Origin: Propionibacteriaceae bacterium
GTDB lineage: Bacteria > Actinomycetota > Actinomycetes > Propionibacteriales > Propionibacteriaceae
Direction of reading: 5' to 3'
NCBI GenBank assembly: GCA_025965155.1
Contig: JAOPXN010000028.1
Span: forward strand, 1 to 42,011
Length of the DNA: 42,011 nt
The number at the start of each line of letters is the position of its first letter. Position 1 is the stretch's first letter. A program made the position numbers and the translations under genes. The notes beneath the pieces were generated by a model, which was given only the letters and a program-made list of their open reading frames with translations, was not told the DNA's origin and ran no database searches. This document shows, piece by piece, positions 25,484 to 41,108 of this stretch.

Positions 25484-26659
25484 TCAGCCGCGGCGCCGCT
25501 CCAGCTGCATGGTCGACACCCAATGCTGCAGGTCCTGTTTCGCCAGGGCGGCGGCGAGCAGGTCGGGGAAGGCGTCCGGGGTGCACGCGAAAGCGGGTAC
25601 CCCGAGCTCCGCCAGCGCGGCGGCGTGGTCGTGGTCGTAGGACGGAGCTCCGGAGTCGGAGAGGGCCAGTAGCACGATCACAGTGACACCGTCGCGGAGC
25701 AGCTCGGCGACCCTGCGCAGCATCTCGTCGGCGATGCCGCCCTCGTAGAGGTCTGAGATCAAGATCAGCACGGAGTCGGCCGGGCGGGCGATCAGCTGCT
25801 GGCAGTAGGCGATGGCCCGGTTGATGTCGGTACCGCCACCGAGCTGGCAGCCGAACAGCACCTCCACCGGGTCGGCAAGCTTCTCGGTCAGGTCGACAAT
25901 CTCGGTGTCGAAGGCGACCAGGGAGGTCCGTACCGTCCGGATCGATGCCATCGTCGCGGCGAACACCGACGAGTACACAACCGACTCCGCCATCGAACCG
26001 GACTGGTCGATGGCAATCACCACGTCCTTGGCCACCGCCTGGGAGCTGCGGCCATAGCCGACCAGTCGTTCCGGAATGACGGTCTTGTGTTCGGGCTGGT
26101 AGGTCGAGAGGTTCTTGCCGATGGTCCGGTTCCAGTCGATGTCCTGCAGCCGCGGCCGGTGGGTACGGCTGGCGCGGTTCAGCGCCCCGGCCACCGCGGT
26201 CCGGGTACGGGTCGCGATCCGGCGCTCAATCTCCGCCACCACTGCGCCGATCACCACCCGGGCCGTGGCCTTGGTCGTCTCCGGCATCACCGAGCTCAAG
26301 CTGACCAGAGTGGAGACCAGATGGACGTCCGGCTGGACCGAGTCGAGCAGCTCCGGCTCCAGCAGCATCGAGGTCAGATCCAGCCGTTCGATCGCATCCC
26401 GCTGCATCACCTGCACCACGCTGGTCGGAAAGTAGGTCCGGATGTCGCCCAACCAGCGCGCCACCCGTGGCGCGGAGGCGGAGAGCCCGCCGGCCCGGCG
26501 GCCCGGCGATCCGTCGTCCTCGCCGTCGTACAGCGCGGCCAGAGCGGCGTCCATCTCGGTCTCGGCCCGGTCCAGGCCCACTCCGAGCGGCTCGTCGGAC
26601 GCTCCGCCGAGCAGCAGCCTCCACCGCTGCAGCCGTTCCTCTCCGGTCCCGCTCATCAC
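25484..26659 (-). CDS. VWA domain-containing protein of a MoxR-type system
   Basis: A 391-residue soluble protein. The C-terminal von Willebrand A domain (about 213-370) has an intact MIDAS metal site: Asp218, Ser220 and Ser222 in DQSGSM, Thr277 in GGGTDIN and Asp303 in ISDLYEGG. The N-terminal 200 residues are helical with a basic region and the WNRTIGKNLSTYQPEHKTVIPERLVG stretch before the VWA domain. VWA partners of MoxR ATPases act as metal-dependent adaptors that bring the ATPase to its target. The GTG at 26659 and the next ATG both overlap the DUF5682 stop. It is the last gene of the five-gene operon. Confidence 0.9.
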   Translation of the reverse strand: MMSGTGEERLQRWRLLLGGASDEPLGVGLDRAETEMDAALAALYDGEDDGSPGRRAGGLSASAPRVARWLGDIRTYFPTSVVQVMQRDAIERLDLTSMLLEPELLDSVQPDVHLVSTLVSLSSVMPETTKATARVVIGAVVAEIERRIATRTRTAVAGALNRASRTHRPRLQDIDWNRTIGKNLSTYQPEHKTVIPERLVGYGRSSQAVAKDVVIAIDQSGSMAESVVYSSVFAATMASIRTVRTSLVAFDTEIVDLTEKLADPVEVLFGCQLGGGTDINRAIAYCQQLIARPADSVLILISDLYEGGIADEMLRRVAELLRDGVTVIVLLALSDSGAPSYDHDHAAALAELGVPAFACTPDAFPDLLAAALAKQDLQHWVSTMQLERRRG

Positions 26660-29043
26660 GCTGCCCCCAGGATCAACCGGACCGTCGCCAGCGCCGGAGC
26701 GGCCAGTTCCAGATCCAGATCATCGTCTGCTCGCTGCTCGGGTCGCTGACCGGCTCCGGCGGCCACCCGCCCGGCGATGGCTCGACGCTCCGACTCCGCA
26801 AACGCCCCGAAGGTACGCCGCACCAACGGCAGCACGTCGACGAACTCCTCCTGCCCCAGCCCGCTGACCCACTCGTCCAGCAGGGACAGCAGCTCGGGAT
26901 CGTGGATCAGCAGCACCGCTCCGTCGGAGAAGAACCCGTCGATCCAGGCCGCCTTGGTGGCGGCGCCGACACCATGCGACAACGCGCGATGCAGCCGGAC
27001 CGGAGCGTCGCTCAACAGCTCGGCGTCCACCAGGATCCGGATGATCCGGCCCGCCAGCTGACCGTTCAGGTCGGGCCGGTCCGCCACGCTGGCCAACACC
27101 GCCAGCCAGCGCTGACGGCCAGTCGGGCCGGGAGTTGATGTGCTCGGGGCACCGTCCTCGGCGGCGGCGGACGCCGCCAGCAGCCCGCCGGCGGCGTCCG
27201 CCGCCAGTAATCCAATCGCGGCATGCACCGCATCCAGCCGCCGGCGCATGGCCGCGGCCGCGTCGTCATCCAGGCCGGCCAGTGCCTGCGGCAAGCCGGT
27301 GCAGATCCGCAGCAGCAACGCCTCGCTGACCTGGCGCAGGCTCGCGGTGTCGGTCCGGCGGACGTCCCCGTACCGCTGGGCCCGGGCGAGATCAGGGACG
27401 GCATCCATCAGATGGACGACGTCGATGTCGAGTGCCGCCTTCTCCGCCAGCGCCGCCAGCAGCCGGCCCAGCGCGTCCGGCAGGTCGGCCAGCAAACAGT
27501 CCCCGACCGCGGCGGTGAGCTCGGCGAGGGAGCCCTCGGCGGCGACCCGGTCGATCTTCGCCGCTGCAGCGGCCTCGACGGTGGTCCCCCACACCGACGC
27601 CTCGACCAGGGTGACCGCGTACTCCGGTCGCCAGGTCGCCTCCCAGGTCTCCCGGAAGGTGCCCTGGCTCTGGATGCCGCTTTCGGCGGGTTGGATCCAG
27701 CGAAGCCCGAGCAGACCGAGCCGGTGGAACAGCTTGGACTTGGCCTGGTCGTGGCTGGTCCGCAGGTCCAGATCGTGCTGCCGCGTGGTCGGCTCCCGCC
27801 TGATCCGGAGCCGCCGGCACTGGGCGGTGAGGTCGGCGTCCAGCGGCACCGTCGGTACGCCGTCGCTGACAGTACCGAGCGCCTGACCGACCACCAGGTG
27901 GTCGGTCACGAACCGGACGGCGACCTCGTCACCGTCGCAGAGCACCGCCCGGGTGGCCTCGGTGACCTCCGACAGACCGGCCAACGGCCGGCCGCGGAGC
28001 GCGGCCAACGTGTCGGCCAGCCGGACCGCCTCGATCACGTGTGCGCTGGACACCATCAGGTCCTTGCCGCGCAAGGATCGCGCCACCGCGGTCAGCCAGC
28101 GGACGATGGGCTGGTCCGGGGCCGTCCACAGGTGGTGGTACCAGCCCGGAGAGGTCACGCCGGCTCCGTAGCCGGAGGCGCTGGCGAGCCGTTCGTGGGT
28201 CCAGGGCACCCAGGTAAGGGTGACTTTCCGCTTCGGGGCGCCGCGCAGGATCCGGGCGTCCGCGTTCGCCGGCGGCAGCGGCAGGGTGAGCACCGGCGCA
28301 TGCCAGGCGCCGCAGACCACAGCAACCCGCCGACGTCCGGCTTTCAGCGCCGCTCGGATTGTCTGCCGCATGTACGCCTCCCGGCGGGCCTCCTGCTCGG
28401 CCGCCAGGCCCGGGACGGTGCCGACCTCCCGGCGGACCTCCGCCATTGCCTCGATCAGTGCAGGGAACGGCGACGCGCCGTCCATCCTGGACTCGATCAC
28501 GTCGTCCCACCAGCGCTCGGCGTCGTCGTATCCAGCGGCCGCCGCCAGCAGCGCCAATGGGTCCTCGGTGGCCTGCCGGTGCTGCCGGCCCGCATCATCG
28601 TGGTCCAGCGGCGGCTGCTCATCGGTCGGCTCGCCGTCGGGTCCGGGCTCCGACTCGTCGGGATGGTCCGCGGTCGCTGGGGAGCTCCGACGGCGTTCGG
28701 CCAGGGTCATTGCCGCGGGCAGGTCGCAGAAGGACACCGCCACGTCTCGGCGCAGCGCCCACCGCATCGCCTGCCACTCCGGCGAGAAGACCGCATACGG
28801 CCAGAAGGCGGCCACGCTCGGTCGGTCCTGGGCGTAGCCGAGCAGCGCAACCGGCGGCTCCATTCCCTCGGCGGCCGCCCAGCCGATCAACGGGTCCGCG
28901 TCGGCCGGGCCCTCGATCAGCACCGCGTCCGGCTGGTAGTCATCCAACGCGGCCAGCAGCGACCGGGCCGAGCCGGGTCCGTGATGCCTGATCCCGAAGA
29001 CCTCGACCCGGGCCGGCTCAGCAACCAGAGCAGCCGTTGCCAC
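26656..29043 (-). CDS. DUF5682 family protein, EreA/TraB/ChaN-like
   Basis: A 795-residue protein, the largest of the operon. The N-terminus EVFGIRHHGPGSARSLLAAL followed by PDAVLIEGP, and later RRVAVVCGAWHAPVL, form a pattern (His motif, Glu motif, G-x-H motif) like that of the erythromycin esterase/TraB/Tiki/ChaN fold. These include metal-dependent hydrolases. The middle has a charged, Asp/Glu-rich segment (about 120-165), and the long C-terminal half is helical and Ala/Leu-rich. It starts at GTG 29043, right after the MoxR stop with no gap. Hydrolase function is inferred from the motifs only. Confidence 0.82.
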   Translation of the reverse strand: MATAALVAEPARVEVFGIRHHGPGSARSLLAALDDYQPDAVLIEGPADADPLIGWAAAEGMEPPVALLGYAQDRPSVAAFWPYAVFSPEWQAMRWALRRDVAVSFCDLPAAMTLAERRRSSPATADHPDESEPGPDGEPTDEQPPLDHDDAGRQHRQATEDPLALLAAAAGYDDAERWWDDVIESRMDGASPFPALIEAMAEVRREVGTVPGLAAEQEARREAYMRQTIRAALKAGRRRVAVVCGAWHAPVLTLPLPPANADARILRGAPKRKVTLTWVPWTHERLASASGYGAGVTSPGWYHHLWTAPDQPIVRWLTAVARSLRGKDLMVSSAHVIEAVRLADTLAALRGRPLAGLSEVTEATRAVLCDGDEVAVRFVTDHLVVGQALGTVSDGVPTVPLDADLTAQCRRLRIRREPTTRQHDLDLRTSHDQAKSKLFHRLGLLGLRWIQPAESGIQSQGTFRETWEATWRPEYAVTLVEASVWGTTVEAAAAAKIDRVAAEGSLAELTAAVGDCLLADLPDALGRLLAALAEKAALDIDVVHLMDAVPDLARAQRYGDVRRTDTASLRQVSEALLLRICTGLPQALAGLDDDAAAAMRRRLDAVHAAIGLLAADAAGGLLAASAAAEDGAPSTSTPGPTGRQRWLAVLASVADRPDLNGQLAGRIIRILVDAELLSDAPVRLHRALSHGVGAATKAAWIDGFFSDGAVLLIHDPELLSLLDEWVSGLGQEEFVDVLPLVRRTFGAFAESERRAIAGRVAAGAGQRPEQRADDDLDLELAAPALATVRLILGAA

Positions 29044-30150
29044 CTAGGACAGCTCCCGGCACGCGCTGTAGAACTCAGCCCAGCCGCTGCGCTCGCGGAC
29101 CACGACCTCCAGGTACTCACTCCACGCGACCTGGTCGGCGACCGGGTCCTTGACCACGGCGCCCAGCAGCCCGGACGCAATGTCGCCGGGCCGCAGCTCA
29201 CCGTCGCCGAAGTGTGCCGACAGGGCCAGCCCGCTGGTGATCACCGAGATCGCCTCGGCCGTGGACAGGCTCCCGGACGGGCTCTTGATCTTGGTCCGGC
29301 CGTCCTCGGTGACGCCGGAGCGGAGCTCGCGGAAGACGGTGACCACGCGACGGATCTCCTCGATTGCGGGCGGAACCGGAGGCAGCTCCAACGACTTGGA
29401 CATGTCAGCCACCCGGCTGGACACGATGGCGACCTCATCCTCGGCGCTGTCCGGCAGCGGCAGCACCACGGTGTTGAACCGCCGCCGCAGTGCCGAGGAC
29501 AGCTCGTTGATCCCCTTGTCGCGGTCGTTCGCGGTCGCCACGATATTGAAACCCTTGGCAGCCGCCACCTCGATGCCGAGTTCGGGCACCGGCAGGGTCT
29601 TCTCCGACAAGACGGTGATCAGCGCATCCTGGACGTCGGATGGGATCCGGGTCAGCTCCTCAATTCGGGCAATGGTCCCGTTCCGCATCGCCACCATCAC
29701 CGGGGACCACACCAACGCAGCTTCGCTCGGGCCTTCGGCGAGCAGCCGGGCGTAGTTCCAGCCGTACCGGATGGACTCCTCCGCCGTCCCGGAGGTGCCC
29801 TGCACCAGCAGCGTCGAGTTGCCCGAGATCGCGGCGGTGAGGTGCTCCGACACCCACGACTTAGCGGTGCCGGGCACACCGAGCAGCAGCAGCGCCCGGT
29901 CCGTCGCCATGGTGGCCACGGCGACCTCCATCAACCGCCGGGCACCCACGTACTTGGGAGAGATCACTGTGCCGTCGGGCAGCGTGCCGCCGATCAGGTA
30001 GGTCACTACGGCCCAGGGCGACATCCGCCAGTGCGGTGGCCGGGGACGGTCGTCGGCGGAATGCAACGCCACCAGCTCCGCTGCAAAGACCTGCTCGGCG
30101 TGAGGTCGCAGCAGATCCGCGGTTGGGGGCGGTGCGGCGACTTCGGTCAT
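29044..30150 (-). CDS. MoxR-type AAA+ ATPase with altered Walker B
   Basis: A 368-residue ATPase. Walker A GVPGTAKS is at residues 91-98, and the sensor 1 Asn is in VATAND (about 209). An ALRRRF arginine-finger-like motif is at about 220-225. The expected Walker B (hydrophobics then DE) reads IARIEEL, with Glu164-Glu165, so the Asp is replaced by Glu. A Met/Ser/Glu-rich N-terminal region precedes the core. MoxR ATPases with VWA partners remodel or insert cofactors into target proteins. The ATG overlaps the DUF5691 stop (ATGA), with GGAGG upstream, giving tight coupling. Confidence 0.92.
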   Translation of the reverse strand: MTEVAAPPPTADLLRPHAEQVFAAELVALHSADDRPRPPHWRMSPWAVVTYLIGGTLPDGTVISPKYVGARRLMEVAVATMATDRALLLLGVPGTAKSWVSEHLTAAISGNSTLLVQGTSGTAEESIRYGWNYARLLAEGPSEAALVWSPVMVAMRNGTIARIEELTRIPSDVQDALITVLSEKTLPVPELGIEVAAAKGFNIVATANDRDKGINELSSALRRRFNTVVLPLPDSAEDEVAIVSSRVADMSKSLELPPVPPAIEEIRRVVTVFRELRSGVTEDGRTKIKSPSGSLSTAEAISVITSGLALSAHFGDGELRPGDIASGLLGAVVKDPVADQVAWSEYLEVVVRERSGWAEFYSACRELS

Positions 30151-31493
30151 AACGGCCTCCTGGTATCAGCAGCTACGGGCGAGCTGGTCTCACCCGCTAC
30201 GGTCGACCTCTGACCGAAGGCCTGGTCGATCTCAGCCCGGAGCTGCATGGTCTGGTCCACAGCGGCAAAGGCTGTGCGGACCAGCATCAGCGTGCTCGCC
30301 GGTCGATCCACGCCGTTGAGGTAGTAGTCCGCAGCCTCGTGGGCAGCGTCGTGGTCGGACAACGGGATCCGAGCCCCGATGGCTGAGGCGTAGTCAACGC
30401 TGGCCGACCCTAGGGCCCTGGTACCGAGCAGCCGCAGCGCGGACAGCCAGATCTGCCGCGGCCACGGCTCCGGCCAGGACAGCAGCAGCTCCAAGATCAT
30501 CTCCGGCTGACGGTCCGCGCGCAGCCAGTCCATGACTATCGCGAGCCGCTGCTGGACCGGGACCAGCCGATGGAGCGCCGCTGCCTGCCGGCCGCGATAG
30601 CCGGCCTCGGTCAGCGCGGCGGCCCATCCGGCGTGGGCATCCCGGACCGCCGCCGCGGCCCACCCGTCCACAAGGTCCTCCCGCCATTGCGGCGCCGTGC
30701 GCAGGACCAGGTCAAGGATCTGCGGCGGCGACTCGTTCCACTCGGTGGGCCACAGGTCAGCAGCAGCCGCCGTGACGAGTTGCCGCAGCACGTACGCACC
30801 GGCGCCGATCCGGCTCCCGGCCGGCGGGCGAGGCGACACCCCATCGACTCGCATCGCCTCATCGACCGGTGGCGGCGTGATGATCAAGATCGGACCACGA
30901 TCGCTGTCGGGCTCGAGCCGAACCGCCGCCAGCGCCCGCTGGTTACGACGCTGTCCGAGCTCGGCGCGTTCGGCGCGACCGAGCTGAATGTCAGCCTCGG
31001 TGGCTTCCTGCCCGTCGGCGAGGAGCTTCGACAGCCGGGACCAGCGCGGGTTCTGATCAAGGAACCAGCGCCCTTGGGTACCGAAGGCCGATCGGAGCAG
31101 GGCCACTGGATAGCGTCGGTGGCGGGCCAGATGGTCGGCCAGTGACGTCCACAGCTGAGGCGCCACGGTGAACCCGTGATCAGCACATCCGGTCAGCCAG
31201 AGCGTGATCAACAGCGGGTCGGGTCGGAGCAGCAGGCGCTCCAGCACCTGCTGGGCTGCGTCGGGCGCCGCGTCACGCTGACCCGACGGTACGGCGCCCG
31301 CCGCAGCCACCCGAGGCGCCGGGCCGCCGGTCCGCGCCGCCGCCCGGTATGCCGCTGCCAGGTCGAGCAGCCGCCCGGCCGGGTCGGGATCCGCGGAGTC
31401 GAAGCGGGTCCACGGCTCAGCCAGCTGCGCCGGCACGGGTCGACGGTCGGTGCCCAGCAGCGCGGTCGTCACCAGCTCGGTCCACCCGTTCAC
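30147..31493 (-). CDS. DUF5691 family protein
   Basis: A 448-residue soluble protein recognised from its start WTELVTTALLGTDRRPVP. The body is almost entirely helical (HEAT-like look, repeated Trp/Leu/Ala/Arg patterns such as ILELLLSWPEPWPRQIW), suggesting a scaffold. A loop with DRGPILIITPPPVDEAMR is the most distinctive conserved block. No catalytic motif is seen. The open frame extends further upstream, but GTG 31493 overlaps the SWIM gene stop as GTGA and begins the conserved region. Family seen beside MoxR, DUF5682 and SWIM genes; function unknown. Confidence 0.8.
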   Translation of the reverse strand: MNGWTELVTTALLGTDRRPVPAQLAEPWTRFDSADPDPAGRLLDLAAAYRAAARTGGPAPRVAAAGAVPSGQRDAAPDAAQQVLERLLLRPDPLLITLWLTGCADHGFTVAPQLWTSLADHLARHRRYPVALLRSAFGTQGRWFLDQNPRWSRLSKLLADGQEATEADIQLGRAERAELGQRRNQRALAAVRLEPDSDRGPILIITPPPVDEAMRVDGVSPRPPAGSRIGAGAYVLRQLVTAAAADLWPTEWNESPPQILDLVLRTAPQWREDLVDGWAAAAVRDAHAGWAAALTEAGYRGRQAAALHRLVPVQQRLAIVMDWLRADRQPEMILELLLSWPEPWPRQIWLSALRLLGTRALGSASVDYASAIGARIPLSDHDAAHEAADYYLNGVDRPASTLMLVRTAFAAVDQTMQLRAEIDQAFGQRSTVAGETSSPVAADTRRPL

Positions 31494-32815
31494 TGGGTGA
31501 GCCTGTTCGTGAACGGGCGACCCTGGGGATCGGGCAGCACGCTGATAGGCCGCAGTACGGACGAGCTCCACTCGCCGAACAGGCTGACTGGTCCCGCTGC
31601 GGCGTGGGCCAGCAGGGGCCACGGATCGTCCTTCAGGCCGACCAGGTCGCAGCCCAAGCCCGCTGTGTCGCGGAACCGCCATGGCCGCCCCGGGCCTTCG
31701 GGTCGGACCGGGACGCCGGCCAGCACCACCGGCATCCGGTCGGCCCACGGGTCGGCCGCCACCAAGGCTGCGAACTCTCGGGCTACCTGGTCCAGGTCGA
31801 CAGCCGGCGCAGGGTCGACGCCACCGACTGCCTGGACCTGCCCGACCAGCGCCCGGAACTGACCCGAACCTGGGTAGAAATGCAGCGCCCCCTCGTACGC
31901 CTGGCCCACTGAGACAGCGGCCTCCAGCCGCTGACCGGGCGGAGCGAAGGCCAGGTAGAGAGCCCAACGTCGGCTACGGCTCCCGCGGAGCCAGACCCGA
32001 CGGGTCTCCAGCCGGTATTCGACTGTGTCCACCGAGCCCAGCGCGGTCCAGCGGTCGACGACGGGTGGTCCGGCCAGCACCTCGCCCTTCGCCACCGGGT
32101 ATCCGATTCGGGACCGCACCGTCGCCGCCAGCTCGGCTGGGAGGTGGTCAATGCGGCGGTGGGCCGTGATCAGCAATCGGAGGGCGGCCATCGACTGCAG
32201 CAACCGGCTCGGCCAGTCCTCGCGGGCCAGCTCCGACGGCATCGACCGCAGCATGCTGGCCACGCCGGGGGCCTGGGCGTCGACCATCCGTGCGGCGACC
32301 TGTTCGAAGTGGGCATAGCCCGCCCGGTTGAGACCCGCGAGACCGGAGCGCACCTGGTCACGGAGCCAGCGGTCCAGGTCGTCCAGGCCGGCGGTCACCC
32401 GGTCGCGTCGTGCGGCGGCGCGTCGCTGGACCGCCTCGGGGTCCACCACTGTGGACTTGTCGACCGTATCGACCTGCGCGGTGCCGCGTGCGGACCGTCT
32501 GGCTATCCAGGCGGCGGCGAACGGTTCCGGACGGGCCGCCGGAATGCCTCCAGCGGTCCACAGCAACAGCAGCCCCAGTACGTGCTTGCAGGGACTCTTC
32601 CGGCTGGGGCAGCTGCAGTCGAAGGCCGGCGGCGGTCCAAGTTCCACCACCGACTGGTACGGCGCCCGGCCACTGCCCAGGCAGGTTCCCCACAGGTGCG
32701 ACTCGTCGTGGCCCAACCGGGTCCAGGGCCGAGGCGTCGCGAGGCTGCTGGCCGCGCTCGCCGACGCAGGGTCGGGCGCAAGCGCAAGCACTCCCGCACG
32801 CTCCCAGACAGCCAT
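31490..32815 (-). CDS. SWIM zinc finger family protein
   Basis: A 441-residue protein opening the five-gene operon. Near the N-terminus a SWIM motif CxCx6CxH is intact: Cys67, Cys69, Cys76 and His78 in FDCSCPSRKSPCKHVLGL. SWIM domains bind zinc and contact DNA or proteins. The N-terminal VLALAPDPASASAASSLA and WTRLG blocks are typical of this bacterial subfamily. The remaining part is helical and then beta-rich (WALYLAFAPPGQR, ALHFYPGSGQFRALV). I chose the ATG at 32815, where homology begins; GTG 32845 is an alternative. The gene is 80 bases after folP2. Confidence 0.87.
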   Translation of the reverse strand: MAVWERAGVLALAPDPASASAASSLATPRPWTRLGHDESHLWGTCLGSGRAPYQSVVELGPPPAFDCSCPSRKSPCKHVLGLLLLWTAGGIPAARPEPFAAAWIARRSARGTAQVDTVDKSTVVDPEAVQRRAAARRDRVTAGLDDLDRWLRDQVRSGLAGLNRAGYAHFEQVAARMVDAQAPGVASMLRSMPSELAREDWPSRLLQSMAALRLLITAHRRIDHLPAELAATVRSRIGYPVAKGEVLAGPPVVDRWTALGSVDTVEYRLETRRVWLRGSRSRRWALYLAFAPPGQRLEAAVSVGQAYEGALHFYPGSGQFRALVGQVQAVGGVDPAPAVDLDQVAREFAALVAADPWADRMPVVLAGVPVRPEGPGRPWRFRDTAGLGCDLVGLKDDPWPLLAHAAAGPVSLFGEWSSSVLRPISVLPDPQGRPFTNRLTQ

Positions 32816-32895
32816 GCACGACAGCGTAGTTGCGACCACCGACACGACCTGGCGGCGGTGAGGATGCCCCCAACGCCAGACGAGTGGCGGAGGAC

Positions 32896-40740: not shown

Positions 40741-41108
40741 GGTGGAGGTGGCGGGAATCGAACCCGCGTCCTTGAGCGATGAAGCAAGACTTCTCCGGGC
40801 GCAGCTGGCTAGGCGTTCTACTTGGCTCCTGCACTCGCGCCAGCACGTTGCAGACAAGCCCAGCCTTAGTTAGTTTCCCTGTTGAGCCCCAAGGCGGCTC
40901 TCAACAGGTTAGCCCTCTTGATGAGGCCAGGATCCGGGACGAAGGCAAGCCCGGTCTGACCCTTCGATCACTGCTTAGGCAGCGAGAGCGAAGTCAGTGC
41001 GCTTAGAGTCGGCACTTATTGGTTTCCAGGGAACATTAACGAGTTGACCCTAGATTCTCGGCCCGCTTCTCTTGGAACGATCGACTCAAGTCGAAACCGA
41101 TCACCCCC
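40741..41108 (-). ncRNA. ssrA: Transfer-messenger RNA (tmRNA)
   Basis: About 368 bases encoding the ribosome-rescue RNA. The 5' end GGGGGTGATCGGTTTCGAC pairs with the 3' acceptor strand CACCTCC; the T-arm GGGTTCGATTCCC is present. The tag reading frame (41013-40975) is GCC GAC TCT AAG CGC ACT GAC TTC GCT CTC GCT GCC TAA, i.e. ADSKRTDFALAA, which marks stalled proteins for proteolysis. The 3' end has ACC followed by C in the genome, so the final A of CCA is probably added after transcription. Two ORFs that seem to cross it are not genes. Confidence 0.97.

Follow-up and report, generated by a model that had tools for sequence, protein, structure and literature searches.

A SWIM-DUF5691-MoxR-DUF5682-VWA operon of a Propionibacteriaceae bacterium as a candidate protein-remodelling machine of the YehL kind

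Propionibacteriaceae bacterium assembly GCA_025965155.1 carries, on contig JAOPXN010000028.1, a run of five minus-strand genes at positions 32815-25484. The window analysed here is the stretch of 42,011 nucleotides in which this run lies (contig C2 of genome G000, 4.49 Mb). The genes encode a SWIM zinc-finger protein, a DUF5691 protein, a MoxR-type AAA+ ATPase, a DUF5682 protein and a von Willebrand factor A (VWA) protein, and they raise the question of whether the five products work together and, if they do, on what. A sequence-only reading had proposed a single, under-described assembly in which the ATPase and the VWA protein serve a hydrolase. The analysis reported here puts it at about even odds (a probability of roughly 0.5) that the five products make up a single YehL-type machine that remodels proteins at the expense of ATP, with the DUF5682 protein as its dedicated client and a SWIM-DUF5691 adaptor.

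The gene order and the overlapping or abutting ends described in that reading were confirmed from the open reading frames (ORFs) and the junction coordinates, three of the junctions being 4-base overlaps (31490/31493, 30147/30150 and 26656/26659) and the fourth (29044/29043) abutting. For the SWIM gene, position 32815 is an in-frame ATG, and the ORF opened by GTG begins at 32845. All five proteins match Pfam families: PF04434 for SWIM (22.6 bits, cut-off 19.6), PF18944 for DUF5691 (164.8 bits), AAA_5 for MoxR (120.8 bits), PF18934 for DUF5682 (880.4 bits) and VWA_CoxE, PF05762, for the VWA protein (176.8 bits). No NCBIfam family exceeded its cut-off in a scan of the same five proteins. For DUF5682, the closest matches that the genome collection gave are Propionibacteriaceae bins with 66-67% identity.

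The operon core and the E. coli yeh genes

In E. coli K-12, yehL (MoxR), yehM, yehP (VWA) and yehQ (SWIM) stand in a row, as genes for the same four kinds of protein do in the window. YehL and YehP are homologous to the window proteins over nearly their whole length, with 38% identity over 367 columns for MoxR and 38% over 366 columns for the VWA protein. YehM is homologous over the first two-thirds by BLAST (28% identity over residues 15-521) and over nearly all of the Pfam model PF18934, against which it scores 330.8 bits. For YehQ the kinship is visible by profile only: BLAST found no similarity to the window's SWIM protein, and profile-profile comparison aligns the two over 187 columns (E 6.5e-5, probability 64%). 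By these comparisons the MoxR-DUF5682-VWA core is homologous to YehL-YehM-YehP. The E. coli operon differs in having a DUF4132 gene, yehI, upstream and in placing yehQ last, its product being larger (614 amino acids), whereas SWIM and DUF5691 come first in the window. No DUF5691 was found in E. coli with Pfam, and a relationship of DUF5691 to DUF4132 or to YehQ was considered and rejected (hhalign E about 0.6).

YehL is one of seven published MoxR subfamilies, which were delimited by their sequences and by local gene structure (PMC3893208). Homologues of YehP (VWA) and YehM adjoin the window's MoxR gene. These two neighbours are presumably part of the definition of the YehL subfamily, and the window MoxR shares that neighbourhood. 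In a tree of 39 MoxR proteins, the 32 from genomes with DUF5682 are split by one change from the 7 others, which are taken here to be RavA, cox-type proteins, MoxR proper and so on; support is modest (72/69) and the branches are long. Plasmid matches to the window MoxR fall into two groups with a gap between them: among the 45 records listed of 76, identity is 38-79% in 24 rows, each of which covers at least 92% of the protein, and 25-33% in 20 rows that cover at most 58%; one further row is a fragment. The solved relatives found by sequence are midasin and NorQ. On this sequence evidence the window MoxR belongs to the YehL subfamily and not to RavA, CoxD/APE2220 or MoxR proper.

Walker A, Walker B, sensor 1 and the arginine finger are all present in the MoxR alignment. 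The first position of the Walker B acidic pair is Glu in 114 of 119 rows, and the five rows with Asp are other MoxR genes flanking Actinomadura loci (L036, L072, L078, L086 and L087) rather than the operon's own. The unusual Glu-Glu pair may serve as a simple sequence hallmark of the YehL group. In the VWA protein, the D, S and S of the metal ion-dependent adhesion site (MIDAS) motif DxSxS occur in all 112 rows, the final D in 111 of 111 and the T in 108 of 111, while a sequence search of the PDB gave no match at E of 0.1 or below. The earlier assignment of a MoxR ATPase and a VWA protein with an intact MIDAS is upheld by these conserved family columns.

The description of the operon as under-described stands in part. 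Its core is the E. coli yehL-yehM-yehP operon with its published YehL subfamily, and in this respect it is not new; no function for the Yeh/DUF5682 cluster was found in the open-licence literature, an outcome on which the sequence-only reading had made its own survival depend. DUF5682 and DUF5691 are not mentioned in the open-licence literature searched, and papers naming the YehL subfamily give no function in the available passages. A genome-reduced E. coli lacks the whole yeh region (PMC10652928), which makes the region dispensable in that strain. In E. coli HNSQ2209 (NZ_CP137737.1, hit H52), an IS5 family transposase separates two listed parts of yehM.

Linkage, co-occurrence and locus variants

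Eighty loci were fetched by DUF5682 as the best of at least 564 confirmed relatives; 78 of them are from Actinomycetota, which biases the set to the kin of the window. All five families are present in 69, ten others are cut by a contig end, and one (L103) has DUF5682 alone. The order SWIM-DUF5691-MoxR-DUF5682-VWA is kept in 68 of the 80, in 66 of them plainly; in L064 SWIM is split over two frames and in L065 there is an extra weak VWA match. The five families are all found in L092, where SWIM and DUF5691 are divergent. L103 comes from a cyanobacterial bin whose genome (G246) has MoxR and VWA and gave no DUF5691 or SWIM match.

Co-occurrence was followed in 739 evenly drawn genomes with Pfam cut-offs: 246 from the phylum of the window, 194 from cyanobacteria and 299 from the phylum of E. 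coli. DUF5682, DUF5691 and both were found over the cut-off in 19, 17 and 17 genomes of the first group, 10, 9 and 9 of the second and 12, 5 and 5 of the third. All 31 genomes with DUF5691 also hold DUF5682, which occurs in 41 of the 739, and the association has Fisher p values, which ignore shared ancestry, of 2e-24, 1e-14 and 4e-8 for the three groups in turn. The families do not mostly occur apart, so that one of the outcomes that would have told against the sequence-only reading did not arise. In the phylum of the window, where 5 of the 17 DUF5691 matches are partial (61-71 bits, at most 210 of 491 positions), the DUF5682 and DUF5691 matches lie 1.2-3.3 kb apart in all 17 genomes.

In two cyanobacteria, G249 and G313, the five genes stand at five places on one contig (5.0 and 4.9 Mb) and all are kept; the closest pair, SWIM and MoxR, is about 69 and 74 kb apart. 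These scattered but complete sets are the strongest single result for one unit. A third cyanobacterium, G365, has all five families on five different contigs. SWIM and DUF5691 form one open frame in 16 of the 80 loci (15 Nocardia and one Phytohabitans) and also in a Hymenobacter plasmid, a fusion that occurs in at least three lineages of two phyla.

It might be asked whether operon inheritance alone conserves the neighbourhood, in which case the five proteins need not be one machine. Most of the loci studied closely are indeed from relatives of the window, as such an account would have it. Scattered complete sets in cyanobacteria, fusion in several lineages and co-occurrence in three phyla disfavour it, and it is very improbable. 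The single functional unit that had been proposed is supported by the same co-occurrence, scattered sets and fusion: the cluster goes beyond a chance neighbourhood and looks like one old and coherent machine.

The composition of the locus was compared in 40 further genome stretches, 37 of which hold DUF5682 and were chosen from 52 listed places over the cut-off (16 of 29 in the phylum of the window, 9 of 10 in cyanobacteria and 12 of 13 in the phylum of E. coli); one of the stretches counted, L125, repeats locus L106. By profiles, 19 of the 40 are of the window's type, with SWIM and DUF5691; in L165, DUF5691 was missed by the profile used for typing and found by the Pfam model (68 bits). The Yeh type is represented by eight stretches and E. 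coli, each with DUF4132 and YehQ around MoxR-DUF5682-VWA. Six stretches (type 3) have MoxR-DUF5682-VWA and neither SWIM nor DUF5691; in L138 and L139, which are among these six, DUF4132 is weakly matched some 5 kb away. L171 has MoxR and DUF5682 only, lies at a contig edge and was left untyped, and in six stretches (L129, L130 and L132-L135) there is one gene each from the dispersed sets of three cyanobacteria. MoxR adjoins DUF5682 in 34 of the 37 stretches, the other three being cyanobacteria with MoxR and VWA elsewhere. Because they are common to the variants, MoxR, DUF5682 and VWA form the constant core, around which there are two adaptor variants described here for the first time, SWIM with DUF5691 in the window and DUF4132 with YehQ in E. 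coli.

Beyond the three phyla, the operon was annotated on Deinococcus and Hymenobacter plasmids, and a Fusobacterium record has a MoxR match next to a DUF5682 match (hits H16 and H64). Both plasmid operons have an extra small gene between MoxR and DUF5682, of 79 codons with the stop in Deinococcus (L212, 8765-9001) and of 204 codons with the stop in Hymenobacter (L213, 8368-8979). On plasmid pOB3b3 of Methylosinus trichosporium OB3b, the VWA gene of the operon (L211, 11160-12385) is split over three frames; the other four genes look intact, and insertion sequence elements lie in the same region.

A patchy distribution, such as the 19, 10 and 12 genomes with DUF5682 reported above, could also reflect a conflict system against phage or stress like the MoxR-vWA systems of multicellular bacteria, with DUF5682 as a toxic effector released on infection. 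MoxR-vWA pairs have been recruited into predicted conflict systems (PMC7159879), DUF5682 is matched in 36 of 72,556 plasmid records (some of them chromosome-sized; 4 predicted to be conjugative and 5 mobilizable), and a TerD gene adjoins one type-3 locus. Like the window, the ternary MoxR-vWA-beta-propeller conflict systems combine MoxR and VWA with a third partner, and the window has a weak bpMoxR match (22.2 bits, below the cut-off of 27). The window differs in that no beta-propeller family was matched by Pfam in the five proteins, and the terms DUF5682, SWIM and YehL are absent from the paper on ternary systems (PMC7159879). PADLOC matched none of the five proteins, the 24 pattern-matching stretches returned from viral contigs with the DUF5682 profile encode no relative, no recurrent defence gene stands beside the 37 type-1 loci, and there is no exchange of the DUF5682 core, which stays the same. 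A yehM match is present in 5284 of 5426 complete E. coli genomes (in 5166 over at least 80% of yehM), and 5289 of 5291 yehM places are on chromosomes, unlike what is seen for a variable defence gene. Phage defence as such was rejected for lack of support from PADLOC, viral contigs and neighbours, and a conflict role in general is unlikely. An unverified faecal 'Bacteriophage sp.' scaffold in the phage collection (L214, MT835988.1) carries MoxR-DUF5682-VWA; it is more likely bacterial DNA.

Flanking genes offer no further member of the system. When flanking frames of at least 100 codons within 8 kb of the 37 type-1 loci were compared all against all, only two clusters reached 6 loci; both are generic, presumably an ABC ATPase and a short-chain dehydrogenase, and a conserved sixth gene or client in the flanks was rejected. 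Eight large frames beside type-3 loci were scanned, and six had no Pfam match, one matched VWA and one TerD. The TerD-domain frame (L180, 6137-7870) directly adjoins its MoxR-DUF5682-VWA locus, which hints at stress or metal contexts for the type-3 variant only.

The DUF5682 protein and the adaptor pair

Enzymes of the TIKI superfamily cleave peptide or ester bonds with a site of two His and two Glu residues, and some members are inactive (PMC6254334). The His/Glu/His motifs noticed at first in DUF5682 are present, and His20, His21, Glu44, Glu89, Asp107, Arg221, Glu222, Gly245 and His248 never vary in 119 aligned rows; the first Gly of the GX2H motifs is found in 108 of these rows and the second in all 119. 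The N-terminus shares GX2H, Glu, Arg and GX2H motifs with the TIKI/TraB/ChaN/erythromycin esterase superfamily, and its domain model is compatible with membership. It differs in being very remote in sequence and in having some 500 mostly helical residues fused on, and no member of that superfamily is tied to a MoxR-VWA pair in the literature read. The motif definition used is partly the general one for the superfamily and partly read off seven TraB proteins, in all of which the equivalents of GX2H, Glu, Arg and GX2H are invariant. These seven were used because a search of viral contigs with YbaP for a TraB set gave none.

A model of DUF5682 was built from 43 sequences, an alignment that left out E. 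coli YehM (mean predicted local distance difference test score, pLDDT, 88). It has an N-terminal alpha/beta domain of about 300 residues, with low confidence at 124-158, followed by a long, mostly helical part. Foldseek comparison with viral structures gave a TraB protein as the first match (probability 1.00, template modelling (TM) score 0.41 on the target). When 43 N-domains were scanned leniently against Pfam, 42 matched DUF5682; the other families matched by more than one member were TraB (4, best E 0.013), ChaN/Tiki (3, best E 0.0075) and DUF5694 (2), the last of which is presumably kin to TraB. Alignment, model and these profile matches, together with hhalign, lend support to the TraB/ChaN-like character first suggested: the N-terminus of DUF5682/YehM probably carries a TIKI/TraB-like domain with an invariant H/E/R/H set, a relationship that is new here. 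Hydrolase activity of this domain is putative. Profile matches of the N-domain in the PDB were set aside, since they are chance matches apart from designed PPR proteins, which align with a helical stretch (E 1.5e-5), and the DUF5682 sequence itself had one PDB match (E 0.046).

The claim that DUF5691 is a helical scaffold was borne out. A model of the Nocardia protein in which SWIM and DUF5691 are fused, based on 57 rows, has a mean pLDDT of 92, and Foldseek found no PDB match for it at E of 0.001 or below, its matches being generic solenoids. Weaker structure matches of DUF5691 include HEAT proteins (the PP2A scaffold and CpcE/CpcF) and alphaRep designs, and its profile matches alphaRep sequences at E 0.004-0.05. 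As modelled, DUF5691 is a HEAT-like alpha-solenoid, which is also new. The four ligands of the SWIM finger are kept in all 84 rows that have those columns. In the three cyanobacteria with dispersed sets (G249, G313 and G365), the SWIM-family proteins (L195, L196 and L197; open frames of 320-321 residues) are without the finger, and the motif is absent from all frames of at least 60 codons within 11-12 kb around the three genes. Since these genomes keep all five families, the finger is not indispensable, and the proposal that SWIM provides nucleic-acid or protein specificity is weakened accordingly.

Coordinates of the five genes and of the motifs discussed are collected in Table 1. Elsewhere in the window, at 40741-41108, is an ordinary tmRNA gene with the tag ADSKRTDFALAA.

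Table 1. Genes, domains and motifs of the operon, in window coordinates
Feature	Position	Strand	Basis and remarks
SWIM-family protein, ~440 amino acids	31490..32815	-	ORF; PF04434; model of the fused homologue; N-terminal SWIM finger, helical middle, C-terminal beta-rich domain
SWIM zinc finger CxCx6CxH	32564..32620	-	Residues 76-94 of ORF from 32845; PF04434
DUF5691 protein, predicted HEAT-like alpha-solenoid, putative adaptor	30147..31493	-	ORF; PF18944; fusion model; HEAT/alphaRep-type matches
MoxR-type AAA+ ATPase, YehL subfamily	29044..30150	-	ORF; AAA_5; 38% identity to YehL; tree
Walker A GVPGTAKS of MoxR	29857..29880	-	Sequence and alignment columns
Walker B acidic pair, Glu-Glu instead of usual Asp-Glu	29656..29661	-	Alignment
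DUF5682 protein (YehM homologue), 795 amino acids	26656..29043	-	ORF; PF18934; probable TIKI/TraB-like N-domain and long helical C-terminal part
Probable TIKI/TraB-like domain of DUF5682, residues 9-300	28144..29019	-	Model; Foldseek; lenient Pfam scan; hhalign
His20-His21 of first GX2H motif (GIRHH)	28981..28986	-	119/119 rows
Glu44 (VLIEG)	28912..28914	-	119/119 rows
Arg221 (REAYM), aligned to invariant Arg of TraB proteins	28381..28383	-	119/119 rows; hhalign
His248 of second GX2H motif (GAWH)	28300..28302	-	119/119 rows; hhalign
CoxE-type VWA protein (YehP homologue)	25484..26659	-	ORF; VWA_CoxE; 38% identity to YehP
MIDAS DQSGS (DxSxS) of VWA domain	25994..26008	-	Sequence and alignment

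A remodelling machine and its client

NorQ-NorD, CoxD-CoxE and RavA-ViaA resemble the window in pairing a MoxR ATPase with a VWA protein that has a MIDAS, the VWA protein being of the CoxE type. They differ in that their ATPases belong to another MoxR group and no DUF5682 gene stood beside them in the short stretches fetched; to our knowledge, none has a TIKI-like partner. In CO dehydrogenase clusters the client gene adjoins the pair, and on two plasmids a MoxR gene of the cox kind (CoxD) immediately follows a CO dehydrogenase gene and is itself followed by a VWA gene. In NorQ-NorD the ring pore takes up a finger of the VWA domain, and ATP turnover has been proposed to twist NorD, opening the target for iron, NorQD remodelling NorD for metal insertion (PMC13036017). 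The sequence-only reading saw no obvious client beside the window's pair. That view gives way to the linkage reported above: since DUF5682 is kept with MoxR and VWA, it would be, by analogy with NorQ-NorD and cox, the natural client.

Homology, motifs, linkage and co-occurrence are what the sequences show; that the VWA protein docks, that the client is remodelled or loaded with metal, that it hydrolyses something and that SWIM-DUF5691 chooses the substrate are inferences. The MoxR ring and VWA protein would work as in NorQ-NorD and CoxD-CoxE, with the VWA protein seated in the ring and using its MIDAS to hold the client. The client would be DUF5682, presumably a cytosolic hydrolase of the TIKI/TraB superfamily, which the ring may open, load with metal or free from an inhibited state. 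The SWIM-DUF5691 solenoid would be the adaptor that brings a substrate or positions the client. The natural substrate of DUF5682 is probably a peptide or ester bond.

Several observations weigh against this proposal. SWIM and DUF5691 lie outside the universal core, since they are missing from E. coli-type and type-3 loci, and the sets of G249 and G313, probably kin, may be one event because their scores and spacings are similar. The TraB match of the DUF5682 model has an E of 0.019, a root-mean-square deviation of 12.3 Å and a TM score of only 0.13 on the query; the whole model found nothing in the PDB at E of 0.001 or below with Foldseek, only generic solenoids, and a profile search of the PDB with the N-domain found no TIKI protein. 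The lenient Pfam scan also gave single-member matches to 17 other families, among them RepB_primase_C at 4.6e-4, which is better than any match to TraB or ChaN/Tiki. The hhalign comparison with the seven TraB proteins, which are YbaP and six plasmid-record loci, some of them near-copies, has a probability of only 23% (E 8.6e-4). At the default setting it spans only 36 columns, placing the TraB Arg on R221 and GX2H on GAWH248, and the first GX2H aligns to GIRH20 and the Glu to E44 under a relaxed setting only. Not all proteins with the TIKI fold are enzymes, either; ChaN, for one, binds haem.

DUF5682 could be a subunit rather than the client. It would then have a structural or substrate-recruiting role, the TIKI-like pocket would bind a cofactor as in ChaN, and the client of MoxR-VWA would be encoded elsewhere and be a respiratory or metal enzyme. 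RavA-ViaA, which has been proposed to mature the Nuo complex (PMC3893208), has no nuo gene within 10 kb around it, a large helical region makes up the C-terminal half of DUF5682 in the model, and three of the 43 N-domains weakly match ChaN, which belongs to the Tiki superfamily and binds haem. An H/E/R/H set that is invariant throughout the DUF5682 alignment is instead typical of a catalytic or metal site, and no sixth family apart from the two generic ones reaches 6 of the 37 type-1 loci. A subunit role is therefore worth keeping in mind and, on balance, doubtful.

The operon is a version of the YehL-type MoxR-VWA system that is set apart by its adaptors, and a candidate enzyme and residues are now named for it. 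A bolder and quite tentative extension is that these loci represent a class of ATP-gated hydrolases, in which a MoxR-VWA ring loads or opens a cytosolic TIKI peptidase or esterase (DUF5682/YehM) and interchangeable adaptors, SWIM with DUF5691 or DUF4132 with YehQ, choose the substrate. If true, this would be a widespread bacterial machine for regulated hydrolysis that is not built on Clp, Lon or HslUV. In E. coli, studied better than any other bacterium, YehL, YehM, YehP and YehQ still belong to the genes with no assigned role. If YehM is viewed as a likely member of the TIKI/TraB superfamily, it is clear which residues deserve mutation and which activity an assay should look for, and the fusion of SWIM with DUF5691, like the existence of two adaptor variants, indicates the proteins that should be purified as a set.

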